Positions 1,734-60,108 of a stretch of 64,000 nucleotides of DNA are shown here, one piece after another; the stretch's first letter is position 1, and the number at the start of each line of letters is the position of its first letter. The stretch spans positions 44,233-108,232 of the forward strand of contig CAMVEB010000010.1 in the NCBI GenBank assembly GCA_947166385.1, given 5' to 3'. Under the pieces are notes generated by a model. It made no database searches. It worked only from the letters and a program-made list of their open reading frames with translations, and was not told the DNA's origin. The stretch is from an uncultured Clostridia bacterium. GTDB lineage: Bacteria > Bacillota > Clostridia > Christensenellales > Aristaeellaceae. The translations under genes and the position numbers were made by a program.

Positions 1734-2215
1734 CTGCTGATCTCCCTGCGTACCGCGCGGTCTTTGTCCATGCCCTTAATCATCTCGCGGAAGGCGGCTA
1801 TCATCTTGTGAATGGACGGACGCTCTTCGCGGCCGTGCTCAACGAAGTGATCAATGTACTCCTTCATAGCGGATGTAATAGCATCCTTATCCCGGGATTT
1901 GAAGAAAACCAGAAATTGCGGTTTCCCGTCTTTCTCGACTTTCTTCACGGCATAATCCACGCCGTATTTTCTTGCGATCCTGTTGAAGGATCTGAGGTTG
2001 ATGTCATCGCCAATCTCCACATTTTCCACGCCGGCATTCTGGCCAACCAGCTGTTTTACCGTCTGCTTTCCGTGAGGGACAACATCCTTGTGTTCCTGCA
2101 CTTTATGCTTCGAGTAATTCAGAAAATGAATCATGGCTGATTTCAGCGTCTTTCCGGTAAACTTTCCGGAAGATACCATCAGCGTGACCGTGCGATGCTC
2201 AAGCTCTTCCTGCAT
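1730..2215 (-). CDS. PcfB family (DUF3801) conjugation accessory protein
   Basis: This 161-residue protein has no signal peptide or membrane segment. The pattern TGKTLKSAMIHFLNYSKHK, a central SFNRIARKYGVDYAVKK and a FFKSRDKDAITSAMKEY stretch match my memory of the PcfB/DUF3801 family. In pCF10 the family member works with the coupling protein PcfC during substrate docking. It lies directly upstream of the VirD4-like gene with a 4 bp overlap, so the pair is translationally coupled. The start at 2215 has a GGAGGGATGAAAC ribosome site. A terminator just upstream suggests that this pair is transcribed partly independently of the surface-protein genes. Confidence 0.85.
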   Translation of the reverse strand: MQEELEHRTVTLMVSSGKFTGKTLKSAMIHFLNYSKHKVQEHKDVVPHGKQTVKQLVGQNAGVENVEIGDDINLRSFNRIARKYGVDYAVKKVEKDGKPQFLVFFKSRDKDAITSAMKEYIDHFVEHGREERPSIHKMIAAFREMIKGMDKDRAVRREISR

Positions 2216-2232
2216 GTTTCATCCCTCCTTCC

Positions 2233-2268
2233 AAAAAAAGAGATGCCTCTGAGCCAGGGAGGCACCTC
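2233..2268 (-). terminator. Rho-independent terminator between small secreted gene and pcfB
   Basis: On the minus strand GAGGTGCCTC and GAGGCATCTC form a 10 bp stem (one G-T wobble, 9 nt loop) followed by seven Ts. It sits between the stop of the 146-residue secreted protein and the pcfB ribosome site, so it either ends the adhesin transcript or partly attenuates read-through into the transfer genes. Confidence 0.8.
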
Positions 2269-2293
2269 CAGTCGATGCAGGTATGTCTTCGGA

Positions 2294-2734
2294 TCACGCC
2301 TTAATCCAGTCGGTACGGCGCGCGATATACGTTTTTCCTTTGTACACATATCTCACCTTGTACTTGTAGTAGCAGTATCCTCTGCCAACACGAAGGTTGT
2401 ACTCTTCGCCGTAATTGATTCGGAAAATACCGGTTCCCACCCAGATATCTTTGGTGATCCCGGTGCCTTTTCTCAGATAAATGCGTTGATTGTCTACCAC
2501 TTTCCGGGCTTTTCCGCCTTCGCCGACCTTGCACCAGACATCAATGTAAACCTTGAAGTCCTTGGCATTCTTGCTTGCGGAAGTAAACTCGACAGTAATG
2601 ATCTTGGTTCTGGTCTGGTTATTCCAGTCGGAGTGAATAACATGAGCGCTGCCCGCGGCCATCCCGGTAAACGGGATGGCGCAGACCAGCAGCGCAGCCA
2701 TCAAAGCGGCAATAACACGGATGATCTTTTTCAT
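2294..2734 (-). CDS. Small secreted protein of unknown function
   Basis: This 146-residue protein starts with a classic signal peptide: MKK, a hydrophobic stretch to about residue 23, and a likely cleavage site after MAAG. The mature part is beta-rich and basic, with no anchor motif. It contains tandem-looking hydrophilic strands such as KIITVEFTSASKNAKDFKVYIDVW and ends in RRTDWIKA. I do not recognise a family. It begins 4 bp after the 794-residue SpaA-type gene and is the last gene before a terminator, so it is probably co-transcribed with the surface proteins and may be an accessory surface or pilus component. That role is inference from position only. Confidence 0.7.
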   Translation of the reverse strand: MKKIIRVIAALMAALLVCAIPFTGMAAGSAHVIHSDWNNQTRTKIITVEFTSASKNAKDFKVYIDVWCKVGEGGKARKVVDNQRIYLRKGTGITKDIWVGTGIFRINYGEEYNLRVGRGYCYYKYKVRYVYKGKTYIARRTDWIKA

Positions 2735-2738
2735 TGGT

Positions 2739-5123
2739 TTAATCCTCCTGTTTCTTGGGGGACTTCTTCCGGCGGATGATAAACAGCACTCCGCTCACGA
2801 GAATGAACCCGGCTCCCAAGATCATCAGGCCGGTAACAGCCATCTGTACGCCCGTCTGAATCACGGTGTAGTTGACCATGTGCGGCATGGTTTCAGGGAT
2901 TACGTAGTTTTCATCCATGACGACCTTGATGACTTCGCCGGAAACACTGAAGCCTTCCAGCGTTTCGATTTCCTTGATGTAGTACACGCCGCTGTCCTGA
3001 ACGGTGATGCTGACAATGCCGTTTTCGTCAGACACGTATTCGCCCAGGCTTGTTCCTTTTTCATCTTCCAGGCGGAACTTGACGCCAGATAGCGGATTGC
3101 CACTGGAATCAGTCTTCAGGAATTCATAGTGGTTCGGAATGTTCACGCATTTGATCATCTCCGGTGCTTTCCACTTTTCATCCACATGGATCACGATATC
3201 CAGCAGCCTGCAATAGCCTTCAGGCACCTTGCTTTCACGGATAATCCAGTCGCCATAACCGAACTTGGTGAAGGTCAGGCAACCATCCTTATCAGTTTTC
3301 AGCGTTTCAACGATTTCGGCAGTGTTGGCGTTCATGAGAACAAACTCAATGCCTTCCATGGGCTTTCCGGAGGTATCAGTCTTCTGCAGCGGCAGTTCCT
3401 GCGGAATGTTCACAAATCCCTGTGTCGGTTTTTCGGGATTGACGTATTTCTCGTTCACAGTGACGATGTTTTCTTTTGTGGAGAGCAGATAGCCATCCGG
3501 AGCTTTGGTCTCGCGTACCGTATAGCGGCCCTGCTCCACATGGGTGAAGCTGATTATACCGTCTTTATCGGAAACAGCGGTCATTACCAGTTTGCCTTCT
3601 TCGTTGAACAGTCCGAACTCGGCATCAGCCAGGGCTTTTCCATCCTGGTCAACCTTCTGCATCAGGATCTCTGTGGGAATATTGTTGATAATGGCCAGTG
3701 GTTCCTTCGGATTGATGAAGGTGCCATCCACAGTCACGGGCACGCGGGTATAGTCACGGACATAACCCGGCAGCGGTTCCTTTTCCTGAATGTAGTAGTC
3801 GCCATAAGGCACCTTTTCAAAGGTCGCAAAGCCTTTTTCATCGGTAACAGCGGTCTTGACCAGATAATTGGTATCCGTTGCGTACAGTCCAAACTGAACT
3901 CCCGCCAGAGGCTTACTGGCTTCATCTACCTTCATGATATAGAAGCGGGTGTAGTCATCCGTCACATGAGTGCGGCCGTCCACCTTACCCTCGGAATCCA
4001 CTGTGAAGGAGAACTCGGTCACACACAGTTCATAACCTTCCGGCGCCAGAACTTCCTTATATGTGTACTTCCCGGGCAAAGCAGGGAACGCAGGCACAAA
4101 CCCGTCTTCGCCGGTATAAGCCTTGCAGACGACTTCGCCTTCTTCGTTCCTGACCTCAATCAGCGTATTCGGCAGATAATCAGATCCGGCAATATCCAGC
4201 TTGGCAATTCTGGGAGTACCGTGAACGATCTCATCGATAATGGGAGCCTCGAGTGTGAATTCGCAGATTCCCTCGTCCGTAAGCTGTTTCCGGTCGATAT
4301 CGATATGGTAAGCGGCTTCGTTGATCTTCCACCCGTCCGGGGCGGCGATTTCTTTCAGCGTATAGTGTCCATGCGGGAAGTTCCCGGCAAAGGAAGCTTT
4401 GCCGTCCTTATCGGTCACTGCTACACCGACCAGCGTTCCCTTGGGAAGAGATCCGCCGACATACTTGATCTCTTCATGGTTATAGAGACCGAAAACAAAG
4501 CCTTCGCCCGGAGCGGTTTCAATTTCGCTGGAAACCAGCCCGTTGTCATGCTCTTTGGTTACGATGACCTGCTTTGCTTTTGAAAAATTGATCTTTGCGG
4601 GCAGGAATTCATCTGTAACGCTGACTGTTTCGATCACCACAGGCGTTTTCTGATCCGCGGCCTGAAGCAGTACATCATAGCGGTTTTCATCCACCTTGTA
4701 CCCGGCAGGAGCGCTTTTCTCTACAATGTAGTAGTGCCCCAGCGGAAGCAGCGGGCTTTCATCCTTACCCTCGGCGGTTGTCGTGATGGTTGCGGCGACT
4801 TCATCAGCCTTAAACCATTTGGTTCCTTCTTTGCCAACGATGTCTTCCACGGCACGGATTTCATAAACAGCGCCTTCAAGGTATCCCTCATGATAGTCAG
4901 GCGCATAAACGGTGAACCCGGTGGAATCCTGGGATTCCACGAAACCGGTCAGTACCATGCCTGTCTTTTCCAGGATGATCTTGCCCTTAATAGGCGTATT
5001 CGTAACAAAGATCTCCTGAGTGGTTTCATTCACTTCTTCGCCAAAGACGGCTGCCGGAAGACAGACAAGCAACAGCAGCAGGCTCAGAATCAGCGCGGTG
5101 AATCCTTTTCTTGTGATATTCAT
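2739..5123 (-). CDS. SpaA/CnaB-repeat surface protein with C-terminal membrane anchor
   Basis: This 794-residue protein has a signal peptide (residues 1-28) followed by about seven prealbumin-like CnaB/SpaA domains. Each opens with a K-x-D or EKTG strand (QKVDQDGKAL, LKTDSSGNPL) and closes near a glutamate in RETKAPDGY-type segments. Lys-Asn isopeptide bonds with a catalytic Glu are typical of this fold. The C-terminus is a hydrophobic helix followed by RRKKSPKKQED, the layout of a cell-wall sorting signal. The expected LPxTG is replaced by VIQTG. It is the only one of the three neighbouring surface proteins with an anchor. A class B sortase lies upstream in the same gene string and is the likely partner. 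Confidence 0.9.
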   Translation of the reverse strand: MNITRKGFTALILSLLLLLVCLPAAVFGEEVNETTQEIFVTNTPIKGKIILEKTGMVLTGFVESQDSTGFTVYAPDYHEGYLEGAVYEIRAVEDIVGKEGTKWFKADEVAATITTTAEGKDESPLLPLGHYYIVEKSAPAGYKVDENRYDVLLQAADQKTPVVIETVSVTDEFLPAKINFSKAKQVIVTKEHDNGLVSSEIETAPGEGFVFGLYNHEEIKYVGGSLPKGTLVGVAVTDKDGKASFAGNFPHGHYTLKEIAAPDGWKINEAAYHIDIDRKQLTDEGICEFTLEAPIIDEIVHGTPRIAKLDIAGSDYLPNTLIEVRNEEGEVVCKAYTGEDGFVPAFPALPGKYTYKEVLAPEGYELCVTEFSFTVDSEGKVDGRTHVTDDYTRFYIMKVDEASKPLAGVQFGLYATDTNYLVKTAVTDEKGFATFEKVPYGDYYIQEKEPLPGYVRDYTRVPVTVDGTFINPKEPLAIINNIPTEILMQKVDQDGKALADAEFGLFNEEGKLVMTAVSDKDGIISFTHVEQGRYTVRETKAPDGYLLSTKENIVTVNEKYVNPEKPTQGFVNIPQELPLQKTDTSGKPMEGIEFVLMNANTAEIVETLKTDKDGCLTFTKFGYGDWIIRESKVPEGYCRLLDIVIHVDEKWKAPEMIKCVNIPNHYEFLKTDSSGNPLSGVKFRLEDEKGTSLGEYVSDENGIVSITVQDSGVYYIKEIETLEGFSVSGEVIKVVMDENYVIPETMPHMVNYTVIQTGVQMAVTGLMILGAGFILVSGVLFIIRRKKSPKKQED

Positions 5124-49835: not shown

Positions 49836-49853
49836 TTGTTAAGGAGCAAGTTC

Positions 49854-52800
49854 ATGGATAAGAATGCCATCAAGAAATTTTCAACTTGGGCACGGCGGGA
49901 ATTAATCGAGCGCATCCGCCAGCAAGCATATCGCTACGGAGTAGAAAACGCTAATGCGGATCCTTATGCCGACTCTGCTCATGGGGGTGTGCTAACCCCA
50001 AAGCAGCGTAGCCAGCGTCAAGCGTTGATTGAGCGGATGCAGGCAAAAGGATATGAGACGACCATTGAAGAAGTGGCCTATACTTGGTTTGATCGATTTT
50101 GTTCCTTAAGGTTCATGGAGGTCAATGGTTATTTACCGGGAAAAACGCGCATGTTTTCAGACGAAAACGGCGCTTTCCATCCACAGATTCTATCAAATGC
50201 TTTGAATGTTGAGCTTGATGGATTAGACATTAATACTGTGATTCAACTGAAAGAAGAAAATAAAACTGAAGAGTTGTTTAAGTATCTTCTTCTAACTATG
50301 TGTAATGTTCTGAAACCGGTTTTAACACTGTTTCAACCCGATGATCGCGGATGCTATTTGTCAGATCGGGATTATACCTGGCTACTGTTGCCGGATAATC
50401 TACTCCGGGAAGGCAGTGTCCCGGAACAAATGGTCCTGACAATTCCGGAGGATGACTGGAAAGATGCTGTGCAGATCGTTGGGTGGCTCTACCAGTATTA
50501 CAATGCAGAACCAAAGGATCAGGTATTCGCCAATCTGAAGAAGAATATCAAGATCAGTAAAAAGGATATTCCTGCTGCCACTCAGCTTTTTACCCCGGAC
50601 TGGATTGTTCGCTACATGGTTGAAAACAGTTTGGGACGCTTTTGGTTAGAAGGGCATCCTGATGAAAACCTGAAAACTAACTGGAAATATTATCTGGAGG
50701 AAGCTGAGCAGGAGCCAGAAGTCCAGGCACAGCTTGCCAAGCTTCGGGAAAGCTATGCTGCCATCAAACCAGAAGAGCTTTTGTGCATTGACCCCTGTAT
50801 GGGCAGCGGACACATCCTTGTTTATATGTTCGATGTACTAGTACAGATTTACGAAGCTTATGGATATCCTACACGCGAGGCTGTCGCAAGCATTGTGGAG
50901 AAGAACCTTTGGGGGCTGGATATTGATGACCGTGCTGCGCAGTTGGCCAATTTTGCGGTTATGATGAAGGCCCGGCAGTATGATAAGGGGTGGTTCCGGA
51001 GAGGAATACAGCCTCATGTGATGGCTGTTCAGGAGAGCAATGGGATTGACAGGAATCATCTACGTTTTATGGGGAACAGCCTAAGTGAATTTGAACGAAA
51101 CAATGCTGTTACACAGATTGATACTTTATTAGACGAGTTTGTTGACGCAAAAGAGTATGGCTCCATTTTGAAACCGCAGAAATATGATTTGGATTTATTA
51201 AAATGTTTTATCGAAGCAACTACTCCTGAACAACAATTGTCAATGGAGGAAGCTGGAATTGAAAGAACTCAGGAACAGTTACGGCAAATAATTGAACAAT
51301 CATATGTTTTAACGCAGAAATACCAAGTTGTTGTTACTAATCCACCATATATGGGATCAACGGGTATGAGCGAAAAACTATCCATATATACAAAAACAAA
51401 TTATCCTGACTCAAAAAGCGACATGAGCACAGTCTTTATGGAGCGTTGTCTTAGTTTTTGCTGTGATTGTGGCTTGATGTCAATGATTAATATACCAGTA
51501 TGGATGTTCCTTTCAAGTTTTGATAAGCTCCGTAAAAACATTGTTGAAAACAATACATACATTAACATGGTACATCCTGGCCGTGGTATATTTGGTTCTG
51601 ACTTTGGTACCACAGCTTTTGTTATCGAAAATCATCGAATCACAAATTATATAGGGCACTATTGTCGTTTGTTTGATAAAAAAGGAGAAGTCGAAAGCGT
51701 TGATGCGCGTGAAAAAGCTTTACTTTCAGGCAAAGGCCGATTCTTTGCCAAGCAAGAAACGTTCTCTAAAATTCCTGGAACGCCTTTGGCTTATTGGGTA
51801 AGCAAAGAATTCATCGATTCATTTAGTTTTGAGAATCTTTATAAATTTGCTCCAACAAAGCAGGGCATCGCGACAGCAAACAATGACCATTATCTACGAT
51901 TTTGGTTTGAAGTAAGCAATAGTAATATTGCATGGAACATTTTATCTCATGAGCAATCATTAGAAACAGACAATAAATGGTATCCATATAATAAGGGTGG
52001 CGTTTTTAGAAGATGGTATGGAAATAGAGAATATGTGCTTAATTGGCAATACGATGGAAAAGAGTTACGCAACGATAGTAAGGCAGTAATTAGGAATCCT
52101 GCTAATTACTTTCTTCCCGGCTGTACTTGGTCTGATGTTACAATGAGTGGATTCTCAGTGCGTATTTCCGATCCTGGCTTCATCAATGACAGTGCAGGCC
52201 CCATGTGTTTCCCTAGCGATGATACAATAGACTATACACTAGCATTATTGAATAGCAAACCAATACAAAGCTTTCTCGAACTGTTAACACCCAATTTTCA
52301 TTATCGTGAAGGCCCTGTTGGCTTATTGCCTTTTAAGATTGAGCAAAAAGAAAAAGTCGATATATTAAGCAAAAGATGTCAGGAATTATCGAAAAAGGAC
52401 TGGGATTCTTTTGAAGCATCCTGGGATTTCCAGTGCCATCCAATCGTACTTGCTGAACAACAAATCAAAACGAACCCCGCAGACGCTCTTGCGGATGCAT
52501 TGTGCGCAGGGGATCTTTCAAAAGTATCTGCGCCGATAGAATCATGTTACAGAGTCTGGGAAGGGCAATGTAAAACCAGGTTCAATCTACTTAAGCAGAA
52601 TGAAGAAGAATTGAATCGTATTTTCATCGATACTTATGGTTTGCAAAATGAACTGTCTCCAGAAGTAGCCGACAAGGATGTGACCGTTCGCAATGCCGAT
52701 TTGGGGCGTGACATTCGAAGTCTCATTTCCTATGCGGTAGGCTGTATGTTTGGTCGCTATTCTCTGAATAAACCGGGTCTACAGTTTGCAGGTGGAAACT

Positions 52801-53429
52801 GGCAACAATGGCTAAACGAACAGGGTGAGATGCGATATATACCTGATAAAGATGGTATACTTCCCATTACCGATGATGAATATTTTAACGATGATATTGT
52901 CACAATGTTTATTGATTGGCTAAAGAAAGTTTTTGATCCGGAAACTATAGAAGACAATCTTAAGTTTATCGCCTCAGCGCTTTATCCGAAGGGAAATGGA
53001 ACTGCACGTGAACTGATCAGACAGTACTTCCTGAACGATTTCTATAAGGATCATATAAAGAACTAGCAAAAGCGTCCGATATACTGGATGTTTGATTCGG
53101 GTAAGAAGAACGGACTTAAGTGCTTAGTTTACATGCATCGCTGGACAAAAGATATAGTTGCCCGTGTTCGCACAGACTATGTACATGAGATGCAGAGCCG
53201 CTACCGCACAGCCATTGAAGAACTGTCTCATCGCGTAGATAGCGTAAGCGGCTCCGAGCGGGTACGACTGCAGAAGCAGCTTACAAAGATTCAGGAACAA
53301 GATATAGAACTGCTGAAATATGAAGAAAAAGTACACCATTTAGCAGATCAGATGATCACAATTGATCTGGATGATGGGGTGAAACATAATTACTCCATTT
53401 TCGAAGATGTATTAGCACCGATCAAGTAA
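49854..53429 (+). pseudogene. pglX: Second PglX methyltransferase, interrupted by an in-frame amber codon
   Basis: The frame from 49854 (AAGGAGC before the ATG) has IDPCMGSGHILVY and VVVTNPPYMGS like copy 1. After KDHIKN it meets TAG at 53064-53066, then continues in the same frame for 121 codons (QKRPIYWMFDSGKKNGLKCL...) to the normal end. Copy 1 has Tyr at this place (KIYQKRPIYW), so one base change explains the stop. The catalytic core is upstream, so a shortened protein of about 1070 residues could still be made. N- and C-terminal thirds resemble copy 1 while the middle differs, so specificity is probably different. Confidence 0.88.
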
Positions 53430-56366: not shown

Positions 56367-58421
56367 ATGGGTAGTGTTTTTCTTACTTCCAGAGAAGAAA
56401 TTAAGGATAAACTCCGTCAGCACTTTGATGGAAAGATTGTCCGCAAGGATCTTACTAAGAAAATCAAGGAAGGCGCCAATGTGCCTGTTTATGTCCTAGA
56501 GTTTTTGCTGGGACAATACTGTTCTTCTGATGATGACGCGATCATTGAACGCGGTGTTCAGCATGTAAAGCGGATTCTGGCGGATAACTTTGTGCGTCCG
56601 GATGAAGCTCAAAAGATCCTGTCACAGTTGCGGCAGAAAGGCAGCTATACGGTAATCGATAAGATCACGGTTGGCCTGAACATCAAAAATGACAAGTATG
56701 AAGCCGAGTTCTCAAATCTTGGCCTGAAAGGGTTACCGATCAGCGAAGAGTATCCGGAACGCTTCGATCGGCTGCTTTGCGGCGGCATCTGGTGCATCGT
56801 ACAGCTTGATTATGAATTCAATGAAGAAGAAAAGCATGGATCTCCCATCAGTATTCGTAAACTGACACCCATTCAAATGCCTCATGTAGATATTGACGAA
56901 CTGAAAGAAGGCCGAAAAGCATTCACCAAAGAAGAATGGATGGATGTGCTGCTCCGATCCATCGGTATGGAACCCGATTCTCTTAAACCACGCGAAAAAT
57001 GGTTGCTGCTGGCACGAATGATTCCTCTTGTGGAGAACAATTTCAATCTTTGCGAACTTGGCCCGCGTTCCACTGGTAAGAGTCATCTGTTCAAAGAGAT
57101 ATCACCGAACAGTATTCTTGTTTCTGGTGGGCAAACTACTGTTGCAAATTTGTTTTACAACATGGCGCGAAAGACGGTGGGTTTGGTCGGCTTGTGGGAT
57201 GTTGTCGCTTTTGATGAAGTAGCGGGAATCAACTTTAAGGATAAAGACGGCATCCAGATCATGAAAGACTACATGGCCTCCGGATCTTTTGCTCGCGGGA
57301 AAGAAGAAAAAGCAGCCTCTGCTTCTATGGTGTTCGTAGGCAACATAAATCAAAGCGTAGATGTGCTGTTAAAGACCAGTAGCCTATTTGATCCATTCCC
57401 TCCGGAAATGGGGACGGATACTGCTTTTCTTGATCGTATGCATTGCTATATACCCGGTTGGGAGATTCCTAAATTCCGTCCTGAGCATTTTACAAATGAC
57501 TGGGGGTTCATCACTGACTATCTTGCAGAATTCCTGCGTGAACTGCGGAAAGAGCAGTTCGGAGATGCTCTGGATCAGTATTATCATCTGGGGCGCAATC
57601 TGAATCAACGCGATACGATTGCTGTCCGACGCATGGTTGGCGGTTTCATCAAACTTCTGTACCCAGACGGCATCTATACAAAGGAGGAACTGGAGGAAAT
57701 CCTAGTTCTGGCTTTGGAAATGCGCAGGCGCGTAAAAGAACAGTTGAAAAAACTGGGTGGCATGGAATTTTATGACGTTAACTTCAGTTATATCGACAAC
57801 GAAACTTTTGAAGAACACTTTGTTTCCGTTCCAGAACAGGGTGGCGGTAAGCTGATTCCAGACGGAGTGTGCAATCCCGGCAATGTGTATACCATTTCCC
57901 AGGGTAAGAGCGGCATGATCGGCGTGTTCCGACTGGAAAGCCAGATGCTTCCCGGGAATGGCAAGTTTGAACGTACGGGCCTTTCGAGCGATCAAAAGGC
58001 GAAAGAATCGACCAATACCGCCTTCAATTTCCTGAAAGCAAACAGTAATCACATCAGCGGTACAATCAGCACCACACAGAAAGATTATATTATTGGGTAT
58101 CAAGATCTACAAGGAATCGGCATGACAAACCAGCTGGCTTTGCCAACACTAATTGCGCTATGCTCGATCGCATTGAACAAACCGACTCTGAGTAATTTGG
58201 CGGTGCTGGGTGAAATCAGTATCAGCGGAACGATTCAAAAGGTGAATGAATTGGCCAATGCTTTGCAAGTCTGCTTGGACAGCGGAGCGAAAAAAGTGCT
58301 ACTTCCGATCACCAGTGCTGCTGATTTATCAACGGTACCGGCAGAATTGATTGGCTGCTTCAATATCATTTTCTATCAGAGCGCTGAGGATGCGGTGTTT
58401 AAGTCCCTAGGGGTAGATTAA
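56367..58421 (+). CDS. brxL: BrxL, Lon-like AAA+ protein
   Basis: 684 residues. Walker A LGPRSTGKSHLFKEI and Walker B VAFDEVAGINF mark the AAA+ domain. The C-terminal LAVLGEISISGTIQKVNELANALQVCLDSGAKKVLLP resembles the Lon protease domain but lacks an obvious catalytic Ser-Lys pair. BrxL is the last core gene of type 1 BREX and is needed for phage exclusion but not for methylation. GGCTGGTG precedes the ATG. Confidence 0.95.
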   Translation: MGSVFLTSREEIKDKLRQHFDGKIVRKDLTKKIKEGANVPVYVLEFLLGQYCSSDDDAIIERGVQHVKRILADNFVRPDEAQKILSQLRQKGSYTVIDKITVGLNIKNDKYEAEFSNLGLKGLPISEEYPERFDRLLCGGIWCIVQLDYEFNEEEKHGSPISIRKLTPIQMPHVDIDELKEGRKAFTKEEWMDVLLRSIGMEPDSLKPREKWLLLARMIPLVENNFNLCELGPRSTGKSHLFKEISPNSILVSGGQTTVANLFYNMARKTVGLVGLWDVVAFDEVAGINFKDKDGIQIMKDYMASGSFARGKEEKAASASMVFVGNINQSVDVLLKTSSLFDPFPPEMGTDTAFLDRMHCYIPGWEIPKFRPEHFTNDWGFITDYLAEFLRELRKEQFGDALDQYYHLGRNLNQRDTIAVRRMVGGFIKLLYPDGIYTKEELEEILVLALEMRRRVKEQLKKLGGMEFYDVNFSYIDNETFEEHFVSVPEQGGGKLIPDGVCNPGNVYTISQGKSGMIGVFRLESQMLPGNGKFERTGLSSDQKAKESTNTAFNFLKANSNHISGTISTTQKDYIIGYQDLQGIGMTNQLALPTLIALCSIALNKPTLSNLAVLGEISISGTIQKVNELANALQVCLDSGAKKVLLPITSAADLSTVPAELIGCFNIIFYQSAEDAVFKSLGVD

Positions 58422-58463
58422 AAAGGAATCATATGAGAGCTATTGGGGATGGAGGTGATGGAT

Positions 58464-59267
58464 TTGTGTCTTGATATTGCAAGATTCTTGTTTTGGAACA
58501 TCCATCACCAATATGCTAATTTGGTGCGTTCGCTAGAATATAGTGAGTTGAACCAAATCGATGTTGTGGCTTTATGTGAAATGCCTGATATTATTCCTAA
58601 TACAAATATTCATGGATATTCTCAGATAGAACATATTGATAGTGCTTGTAATGATATTGGAATCTTTATTCGAACCCTTGTCAATGGAGAAAAAAACTAT
58701 TTTCGTGAAAAACCGCATTTTTGTTTGCTACGATTGAATCAATTTGGTATCAATTTTTTAGTCATGCATCTTAATTCAGGGTTATATAATTCACGCGATG
58801 GACGAATTCTTGATATCAGTATTGCGCGTTCTGATATTGAGCGGATTGAGAAAAAATACGGTGATAAAAGGACGTTGATCGTGGGAGATATGAATATAGG
58901 CTTGTTTGATGAAGAGATGTTATCGTTTAATGGTTTCAATGCATGTTTCTTTAAAAGCGAATTAAAAAAGCAGACTCGGACACTACACGGCGAAAAGCGA
59001 GACTTGTTATACAATCCAATGCTTCAAGTATATAAAGATAGTCGGGAACAATCTGTCCCCAAAGGAACATATTATTATAACCAGCCACCTTATTGGTTTT
59101 GCTTTGACCACATTCTAATGAAACCGGAACTTGTTCCTTATTTTACAGATAACAGTCTTACTATATTGGGGAAATTGGGTGATTATCCGTTGATCACCAA
59201 TAACAAACCAATTAAAACAGTAAGTGATCATATGCCAGTACAATTTGAATTGGAGGTATCAAAATGA
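58464..59267 (+). CDS. DNase I-like EEP-family nuclease or phosphatase
   Basis: About 267 residues. The endonuclease/exonuclease/phosphatase motifs are in order: FLFWNIHH, ALCEMPD, LVMHLNSG, VGDMNIG, CFDHILM and VSDHMPVQF. Substrate may be DNA, RNA or a phosphorylated lipid. Several starts are possible; GGAGGT lies 7 nt before TTG at 58464, so I prefer it to 58443. It begins shortly after brxL and overlaps the next gene by 4 bp (ATGA). Its base composition is AT-richer than the BREX core, suggesting separate acquisition. Confidence 0.85.
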   Translation: MCLDIARFLFWNIHHQYANLVRSLEYSELNQIDVVALCEMPDIIPNTNIHGYSQIEHIDSACNDIGIFIRTLVNGEKNYFREKPHFCLLRLNQFGINFLVMHLNSGLYNSRDGRILDISIARSDIERIEKKYGDKRTLIVGDMNIGLFDEEMLSFNGFNACFFKSELKKQTRTLHGEKRDLLYNPMLQVYKDSREQSVPKGTYYYNQPPYWFCFDHILMKPELVPYFTDNSLTILGKLGDYPLITNNKPIKTVSDHMPVQFELEVSK

Positions 59268-59791
59268 AGGGCGAATCATTATGGATAACTTCTGTTGACG
59301 ATCATGAACCATCAAAGCCTGTGTTGGATTTCATTAAAGAACAAGCTAGTTATCTTTCGGAAGAAACAGGCGGAAAAGTTAAAGCGGTTCTTGCACCTGC
59401 CGGAACATCTTGGCGAAGCATCATTAGCTCTTTATCTCTCTTCTCTGAGGATTCATATCATCCTACCCATCATAGCAATGCAAATGATGCGTCTTCTCTA
59501 TATAAAAAACGGACATATGAATTCTATATTGTTGACGAGAAACATAATTATGAATTGTCAGTTTTCCAGATTACATGCAATGATACGTTGCCAGCATCGC
59601 TTGCTATTGAGCCTACAATTGCATCGGAGGCGGGATTTGAAACTAACATTACCGATATTCAAGTAAACAGCCTAAAAGAATTTATTTCCATGTTTGAAGA
59701 GATTATCCGCAGCAATAAAGTAATGTACATTATTGACAGGCTGATAAAAATGCATAGTAATGATCACCAAAATGTTGAGGAGAATCAGTAA
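59264..59791 (+). CDS. Unknown protein coupled to the EEP nuclease
   Basis: 175 residues, soluble, no recognised motif. It contains LAPAGTSWRSIISSLSLFSED and a beta-rich middle (YEFYIVDEKHNYELSVFQITCND), and ends with a helical acidic segment. The ATGA overlap with the EEP gene shows tight coupling, so it may be a partner or inhibitor of that nuclease. That is inference from gene order alone. Confidence 0.65.
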   Translation: MKGESLWITSVDDHEPSKPVLDFIKEQASYLSEETGGKVKAVLAPAGTSWRSIISSLSLFSEDSYHPTHHSNANDASSLYKKRTYEFYIVDEKHNYELSVFQITCNDTLPASLAIEPTIASEAGFETNITDIQVNSLKEFISMFEEIIRSNKVMYIIDRLIKMHSNDHQNVEENQ

Positions 59792-59793
59792 TC

Positions 59794-60108
59794 ATGGTTG
59801 GAAGGTATAAAGTCATTACTCTGTGCGGAAGCACTCGCTTTAAGGATGCTTTTATGGAGGCACAAAAGCGCCTGACACTGGAGGGAAACATTGTCATCAG
59901 TGTTGGACTGTTTGGCCATTCTGGAGATGATGAAGTATGGATTGAAGGCACTAAAGAAATGCTTGATGATATGCATAAACGCAAAATCGATATGGCTGAC
60001 GAAGTGCTTATTATCAACGTTGGAGGCTATGTTGGTTCCAGCACCAGATCGGAGATTGAGTATGCTAAGGCACATGGCAAACCGGTTCACTATCTAGAAC
60101 AACAGTAG
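59794..60108 (+). CDS. Nucleoside 2-deoxyribosyltransferase-like protein (DUF4406-like)
   Basis: 104 residues. ITLCGSTRFKDAFMEAQKRLTLEGNIVISVGLF and MADEVLIINVGGYVGSSTRSEIEYAKAHGKPVHYLE match the small Rossmann-like nucleoside deoxyribosyltransferase/DUF4406 fold. Members cleave or exchange N-glycosidic bonds of nucleotides; related folds act as NAD+ or nucleotide-signal enzymes in defence. Here it follows the EEP and unknown genes with a 2 bp gap, so the three form one unit. Catalytic activity is not proven by sequence. Confidence 0.8.
   Translation: MVGRYKVITLCGSTRFKDAFMEAQKRLTLEGNIVISVGLFGHSGDDEVWIEGTKEMLDDMHKRKIDMADEVLIINVGGYVGSSTRSEIEYAKAHGKPVHYLEQQ

Follow-up and report, generated by a model that had tools for sequence, protein, structure and literature searches.

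Three open reading frames follow the BREX-1 operon in the window (the whole 64,000-nucleotide stretch of contig CAMVEB010000010.1, from an uncultured Clostridia bacterium, that was analysed here), and an earlier note read them as a single self-contained effector module. The locus therefore raises the question of which of the three genes belong together, and of what the resulting unit might do. Conserved linkage in other genomes, which the note itself had set as the test that could refute it, gives a divided answer: the first two genes pass as a unit found in widely separated lineages, and the three-gene set fails.

Gene arrangement behind BrxL

All three frames exist at the positions originally proposed (including the ATGA overlap and the 2-bp gap) and are encoded on the forward strand. 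BrxL, the last core gene of the BREX-1 operon (56367..58421), is followed after 42 bp by a 267-aa gene for an EEP-superfamily phosphohydrolase/nuclease (58464..59267), for which we favour the TTG start at 58464, with a strong ribosome-binding site (GGAGGTGAT, 58451..58459), the in-frame ATG codons at 58449 or 58458 being possible alternatives. The second gene (59264..59791, 175 aa, hereafter the partner) overlaps the EEP stop codon by ATGA, carries its own GGAGGT upstream and, judging from this arrangement, is translationally coupled to the EEP gene; the third (59794..60108, 104 aa) starts 2 bp past the stop of the partner gene. The GC content, initially described as lower than that of the BREX core, is so for the EEP (34.6%) and partner (37.3%) genes and not for the third one (43.8%), as the BREX genes range from 39 to 49% (BrxL 45.8%).

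An EEP-superfamily enzyme and a partner of no known family

The assignment of the first gene to the EEP nucleases is borne out: the window protein gives sub-threshold matches in Pfam, yet its family profile matches solved exodeoxyribonuclease III (ExoIII) at E about 1e-5, and its structure model (pLDDT 86; a predicted beta-sandwich flanked by helices) retrieves LINE-1 endonuclease, APE1 and ExoIII in Foldseek (E 4e-11 to 1e-9), together with DNase I. The residues that typify the superfamily (catalytic Asn, Glu, Asp-x-Asn, Asp and a final Asp-His) are found in the window protein, whose catalytic set (N12, E39, H102, D142, N144, D215, D255 and H256) is complete; across the alignment columns of 37 homologues N12, E39, D142-x-N144, D215 and H256 are invariant and D255 is nearly so. 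By its residues and its modelled fold, the protein is an EEP-superfamily enzyme with intact catalytic residues, and we infer that it is a nuclease whose target would be nucleic acid.

The partner is a divergent member of an unnamed family. It matches the partner encoded by a prophage copy of the pair recovered among viral contigs (L033; BLASTP E=7e-9 over 157 aa), and the family profile, which includes the window protein, scores it at E=1e-28. The model (pLDDT 83) runs from one helix and a strand through a variable insert and antiparallel strands to two C-terminal helices and shows no DNA-binding domain; the conserved features are a P..I.EQ..L...T helix and an N-terminal LW(P/G) motif that is poorly ordered in the model. 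The description of the middle protein as lacking a known fold agrees with structure prediction, as fold searches gave nothing reliable against PDB (best E 0.48) or viral models (best E 0.03), and a sequence search of PDB gave no convincing match. The family has no model in Pfam (a single marginal match, by one member, E 0.006) and no match in NCBIfam. PADLOC-DB 2023 likewise holds no model for the window partner (1 of 41 partners matched marginally, E=0.009) and none that matches the window EEP or the 37 family EEPs. At two loci the partner domain is continued by a further domain, OLD-like TOPRIM in one (L122:1057-2049) and a HATPase_c_4 region in the other (L079:6639-8324), in both cases still directly behind the EEP gene; the partner domain therefore behaves as a module.

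Conservation of the two-gene unit

The pair was reached from the window EEP through a weak match on two Acinetobacter plasmids, where a small gene lies next downstream, and then through profiles that included clostridial homologues. The same order (an EEP gene, then a small gene of about 106-190 aa) recurs in records of Klebsiella, E. coli, Edwardsiella, Proteus, Photobacterium and A. baumannii, and a profile search of Clostridia yielded two closer copies whose second gene aligns with the 175-aa protein of the window. Lone lookups with the window's own partner and EEP proteins had found no pair, owing to the strong divergence of the window copy (its EEP has an end branch of 2.98, and its identity to any relative does not exceed 32%). 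A first alignment of nine EEP sequences was too divergent for a pattern search, and the E. coli genomes contained no DNA closely matching the pEC904 pair. For the partners of plasmid type, P0005 was not significant against the Acinetobacter-type partner profile alone and reached only E=1.8e-4 (probability 48%) with the clostridial profile, so that by sequence they are probable, not certain, members of the family.

Scanning 84,980 species genomes with the resulting EEP alignment gave 49 loci that span about 11 phyla (Bacillota, Pseudomonadota, Bacteroidota, Cyanobacteriota, Chloroflexota, Planctomycetota, Verrucomicrobiota, Acidobacteriota, Myxococcota and Thermodesulfobacteriota among the bacteria, and one archaeon, Methanothrix). 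The partner profile recognised a gene directly downstream of the EEP gene in 45 of the 49; because the scan targeted EEP genes, detection of the partner was not built into this result. Of the others, one shows the partner start and loses the rest at the contig end (L076), one has a divergent, Acinetobacter-type partner behind the EEP gene (L084), one has a frame overlapping the EEP gene that the partner profile does not recognise (L083) and one is interrupted by a transposase (L055). Two further EEP matches (L016 and L017, from G141 and G169) proved to be other EEP enzymes without a partner and were excluded.

Both genes are also rare together. Among 391 genomes of the class Clostridia the EEP profile matched three and the partner profile the same three, adjacently (with one additional marginal partner match, in a 1281-residue frame); among 115 genomes of another family both matched the same two, again adjacently. 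As one genome is common to both surveys, this amounts to four distinct genomes among about 500. Furthermore, EEP and partner distance matrices correlate over 39 loci (r=0.85; none of 2000 permutations as high), which demonstrates a cohesive unit rather than an interaction between the proteins. Taken together, the EEP gene and the 175-aa gene form a conserved, ancient two-gene unit, and the earlier suggestion of a self-contained, apparently undescribed module holds for these two genes; we found no description of the pair in the open-licence literature.

Decayed copies were encountered as well. The EEP gene is broken beside a whole partner in L015, L047, L068, L080 and probably L082, and the reverse applies to L037; in L064 (6001-6756) a deletion has left a single frame in which the N-terminal portion of the EEP runs into the partner's C-terminal end, making this locus a decayed copy in which the partner persists only as a remnant on a truncated EEP. 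The asymmetry is a weak hint of a toxic EEP and is not significant, since by our reckoning gene length alone gives such a split with a chance of about 30%.

The third gene and the slot behind BrxL

The label of the third gene as deoxyribosyltransferase-like is plausible and weakly founded: it scores 15.9 bits against DUF4406 (cut-off 22; E=0.018) and E=0.011 against the PHROG nucleoside deoxyribosyltransferase (NDT) family, which leaves it below the level of family membership. Among 150 relatives, 25 carry homologues (80-90% identical), the source genome has four copies, and the flanks are unrelated from copy to copy. No copy retrieved from outside the window stands beside an EEP pair, and no similarly placed gene was seen in the EEP pair loci read elsewhere. 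As it recurs without the pair and among unrelated flanks, the NDT-like gene is not part of the unit; the three-gene unit was rejected, and with it goes the proposed set of a nuclease plus a base-removing enzyme, for which there is no sign. The copies (59794-60108 in the window; L019-L032 and L102-L121) have sharp edges and unrelated surroundings and look like a lone moving gene, and several lie in defence islands with BREX, McrC-like and restriction genes.

At three other BREX-1 loci, including the second BREX of the source genome, an NDT-like copy is found a few kb downstream of BrxL. Between BrxL and the NDT-like gene these loci contain, respectively, a 1017-aa metallophosphoesterase with a STAND NTPase (L102), a 241-aa protein followed by a McrB-like AAA protein and McrC (L103), and a 254-aa protein followed by a protein with a sub-threshold match to Swt1-like HEPN (L104), at the place that the EEP pair occupies in the window. 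In this genus a variable slot extends from BrxL to the NDT-like gene. On the basis of four loci, we read it as a place at the 3' end of BREX where effectors are exchanged; two further BrxL loci (L105 and L106) are without the NDT-like gene. The proteins of 241-254 aa, of no known family, stand directly behind BrxL (L103:5236-5961 and L104:3628-4392), before the McrBC and HEPN-like genes.

None of the five other BrxL loci inspected in the genus carries the pair, which was rejected as a core component of BREX; a 2026 survey of BREX (PMC12839542) does not mention EEP. The window's own PglX frame (49836-53429) contains an in-frame stop at 53064-53066, near its C-terminal end, after which the last 113 residues resume the same frame from 53088; its relatives in L102, L103 and L104 are without the stop. 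The stop could reflect an impaired BREX in the window or an error of assembly.

Other genomic settings

Locus by locus, defence genes were repeatedly noted as neighbours of the pair. In three clostridial genomes (L038, L039 and L041) type I operons carry the pair between hsdS and hsdR (the window pair itself follows BREX, outside any type I hsd operon); elsewhere it is found behind AbiD (L002) or an Abi gene (L003 and L095), near a DRT-class reverse transcriptase (UG31; L033), behind a PycTM/2TM effector of Pycsar type (L051), behind GmrSD (L123) and, in Acinetobacter phages, between the phage integrase and an FRG gene (L092 and L093). It is also carried by plasmids of 3-5 kb with little other annotation; on the cryptic 3-3.5 kb plasmids of E. 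coli, Klebsiella and Edwardsiella (L007, L004 and L010) it is nearly the sole annotated cargo. In L046 a gene for the RNA ligase RtcB (1859-3358) lies just upstream of the pair, which possibly hints at RNA damage or is due to chance. Many copies occupy ordinary chromosomal settings (flanked by gnd and zwf in Methylovulum and by fabD and fabG in a KSB1 bin, near recA in Chitinophaga; gene names read by eye). Such placement is not typical of defence genes.

Proposed function and alternatives

We consider it fairly probable (roughly 0.6) that the EEP gene and the 175-aa gene constitute one two-gene antiviral effector module, controlled by the partner and accessory to BREX in this genome. The intact active site of the hydrolase, its tight coupling to a small, non-enzymatic partner and the settings that it shares with antiviral effectors are best accounted for by a nuclease effector that the partner restrains and triggers. 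Under this proposal, the EEP protein would be a metal-dependent phosphodiesterase that is freed or switched on in infected cells and there cleaves nucleic acid; the partner would be a control subunit without enzymatic activity, which binds the enzyme, silences it as long as the cell is uninfected and detects the trigger. The module would act as an exchangeable accessory effector at the end of the BREX-1 operon, between BrxL and the NDT-like gene, and may, by analogy with PrrC and EcoprrI, serve as a back-up once BREX is blocked. In this scheme the contact between the two proteins, the partner's roles as repressor and sensor, and the coupling to BREX are all putative. Its generalisation, by which a widespread, undescribed antiviral system couples an EEP nuclease to a governing partner from a family of new fold, travels as a cartridge behind BREX or inside type I operons and is released when host restriction is disabled, is one that we advance tentatively and regard as rather doubtful.

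Other readings deserve consideration. Two genes that often overlap by a few bases, the presence of the pair with little else annotated on tiny Klebsiella, Edwardsiella and E. coli plasmids, and the weak tendency of the EEP gene to be broken oftener than the partner would all suit a plain toxin-antitoxin or addiction cassette, in which an EEP toxin and a partner antitoxin maintain plasmids, prophages and islands with no direct antiviral role. We think this unlikely, given that the BrxL slot and the hsdS-hsdR position are common to antiviral effectors, that the partner is fused to TOPRIM or HATPase domains at some loci, that a toxin gene in first place is the less usual order and that a DNA-binding domain is not visible in the partner model.

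Less probable still is a restriction-type nuclease, with EEP and partner constitutively active on foreign or modified DNA and sparing that of the host, instead of a held-back suicide effector: the nearest solved relatives in sequence and fold (ExoIII, APE1, LINE-1 EN and DNase I) do act on DNA, and the pair is placed inside type I RM, BREX and GmrSD loci, but it has no recognisable modification-reading or methyltransferase domain and also occurs alone on plasmids without a modification gene. The stable chromosomal settings in Methylovulum, Chitinophaga and others, together with the clustering of phylum labels in the EEP tree, could speak for a housekeeping pair (repair or nucleotide processing) that has drifted into a defence island here; its very patchy presence (3/391 and 2/115 genomes), its repeated occurrence on phages and plasmids and the commonness of decayed copies make this highly improbable.

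The antiviral module controlled by its partner is hence the reading that we retain. The defence catalogue searched (PADLOC-DB 2023) has missed a two-gene family that extends over about 11 phyla and is also found on phages and plasmids; one of its two proteins belongs to no known family or fold. Moreover, an exchangeable slot bounded by BrxL and the NDT-like gene points to swappable effectors in BREX operons, which bears on how BREX restriction comes to an end and supplies direct candidates.

Comparison with known systems

Among catalogued systems, the neighbours of the pair match PADLOC-DB 2023 entries (BREX, AbiD, DRT and type I RM), whereas the pair itself is without a model. The McrBC, metallophosphoesterase-STAND and Swt1-like HEPN genes behind BrxL in the same genus share its position and encode unrelated proteins. 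With ExoIII/APE1-type EEP nucleases the window EEP family has the fold, the pattern of catalytic residues and the profile match in common; identity is about 13-17%, and, unlike these enzymes, the family has its own YNPMW, GTYYY and FDQ motifs, a His at position 102 and a partner gene nearly always alongside. The closest parallel in position is provided by prrC, which encodes a single NTPase-linked tRNase (anticodon nuclease) and is embedded in the type Ic restriction operon EcoprrI (PMC2610378, PMC3874165): as in L038, L039 and L041, an extra nuclease gene lies inside a restriction operon, although the EEP pair, unlike PrrC, consists of an enzyme and a separate small partner, and the comparison is one of positional analogy, not of membership.
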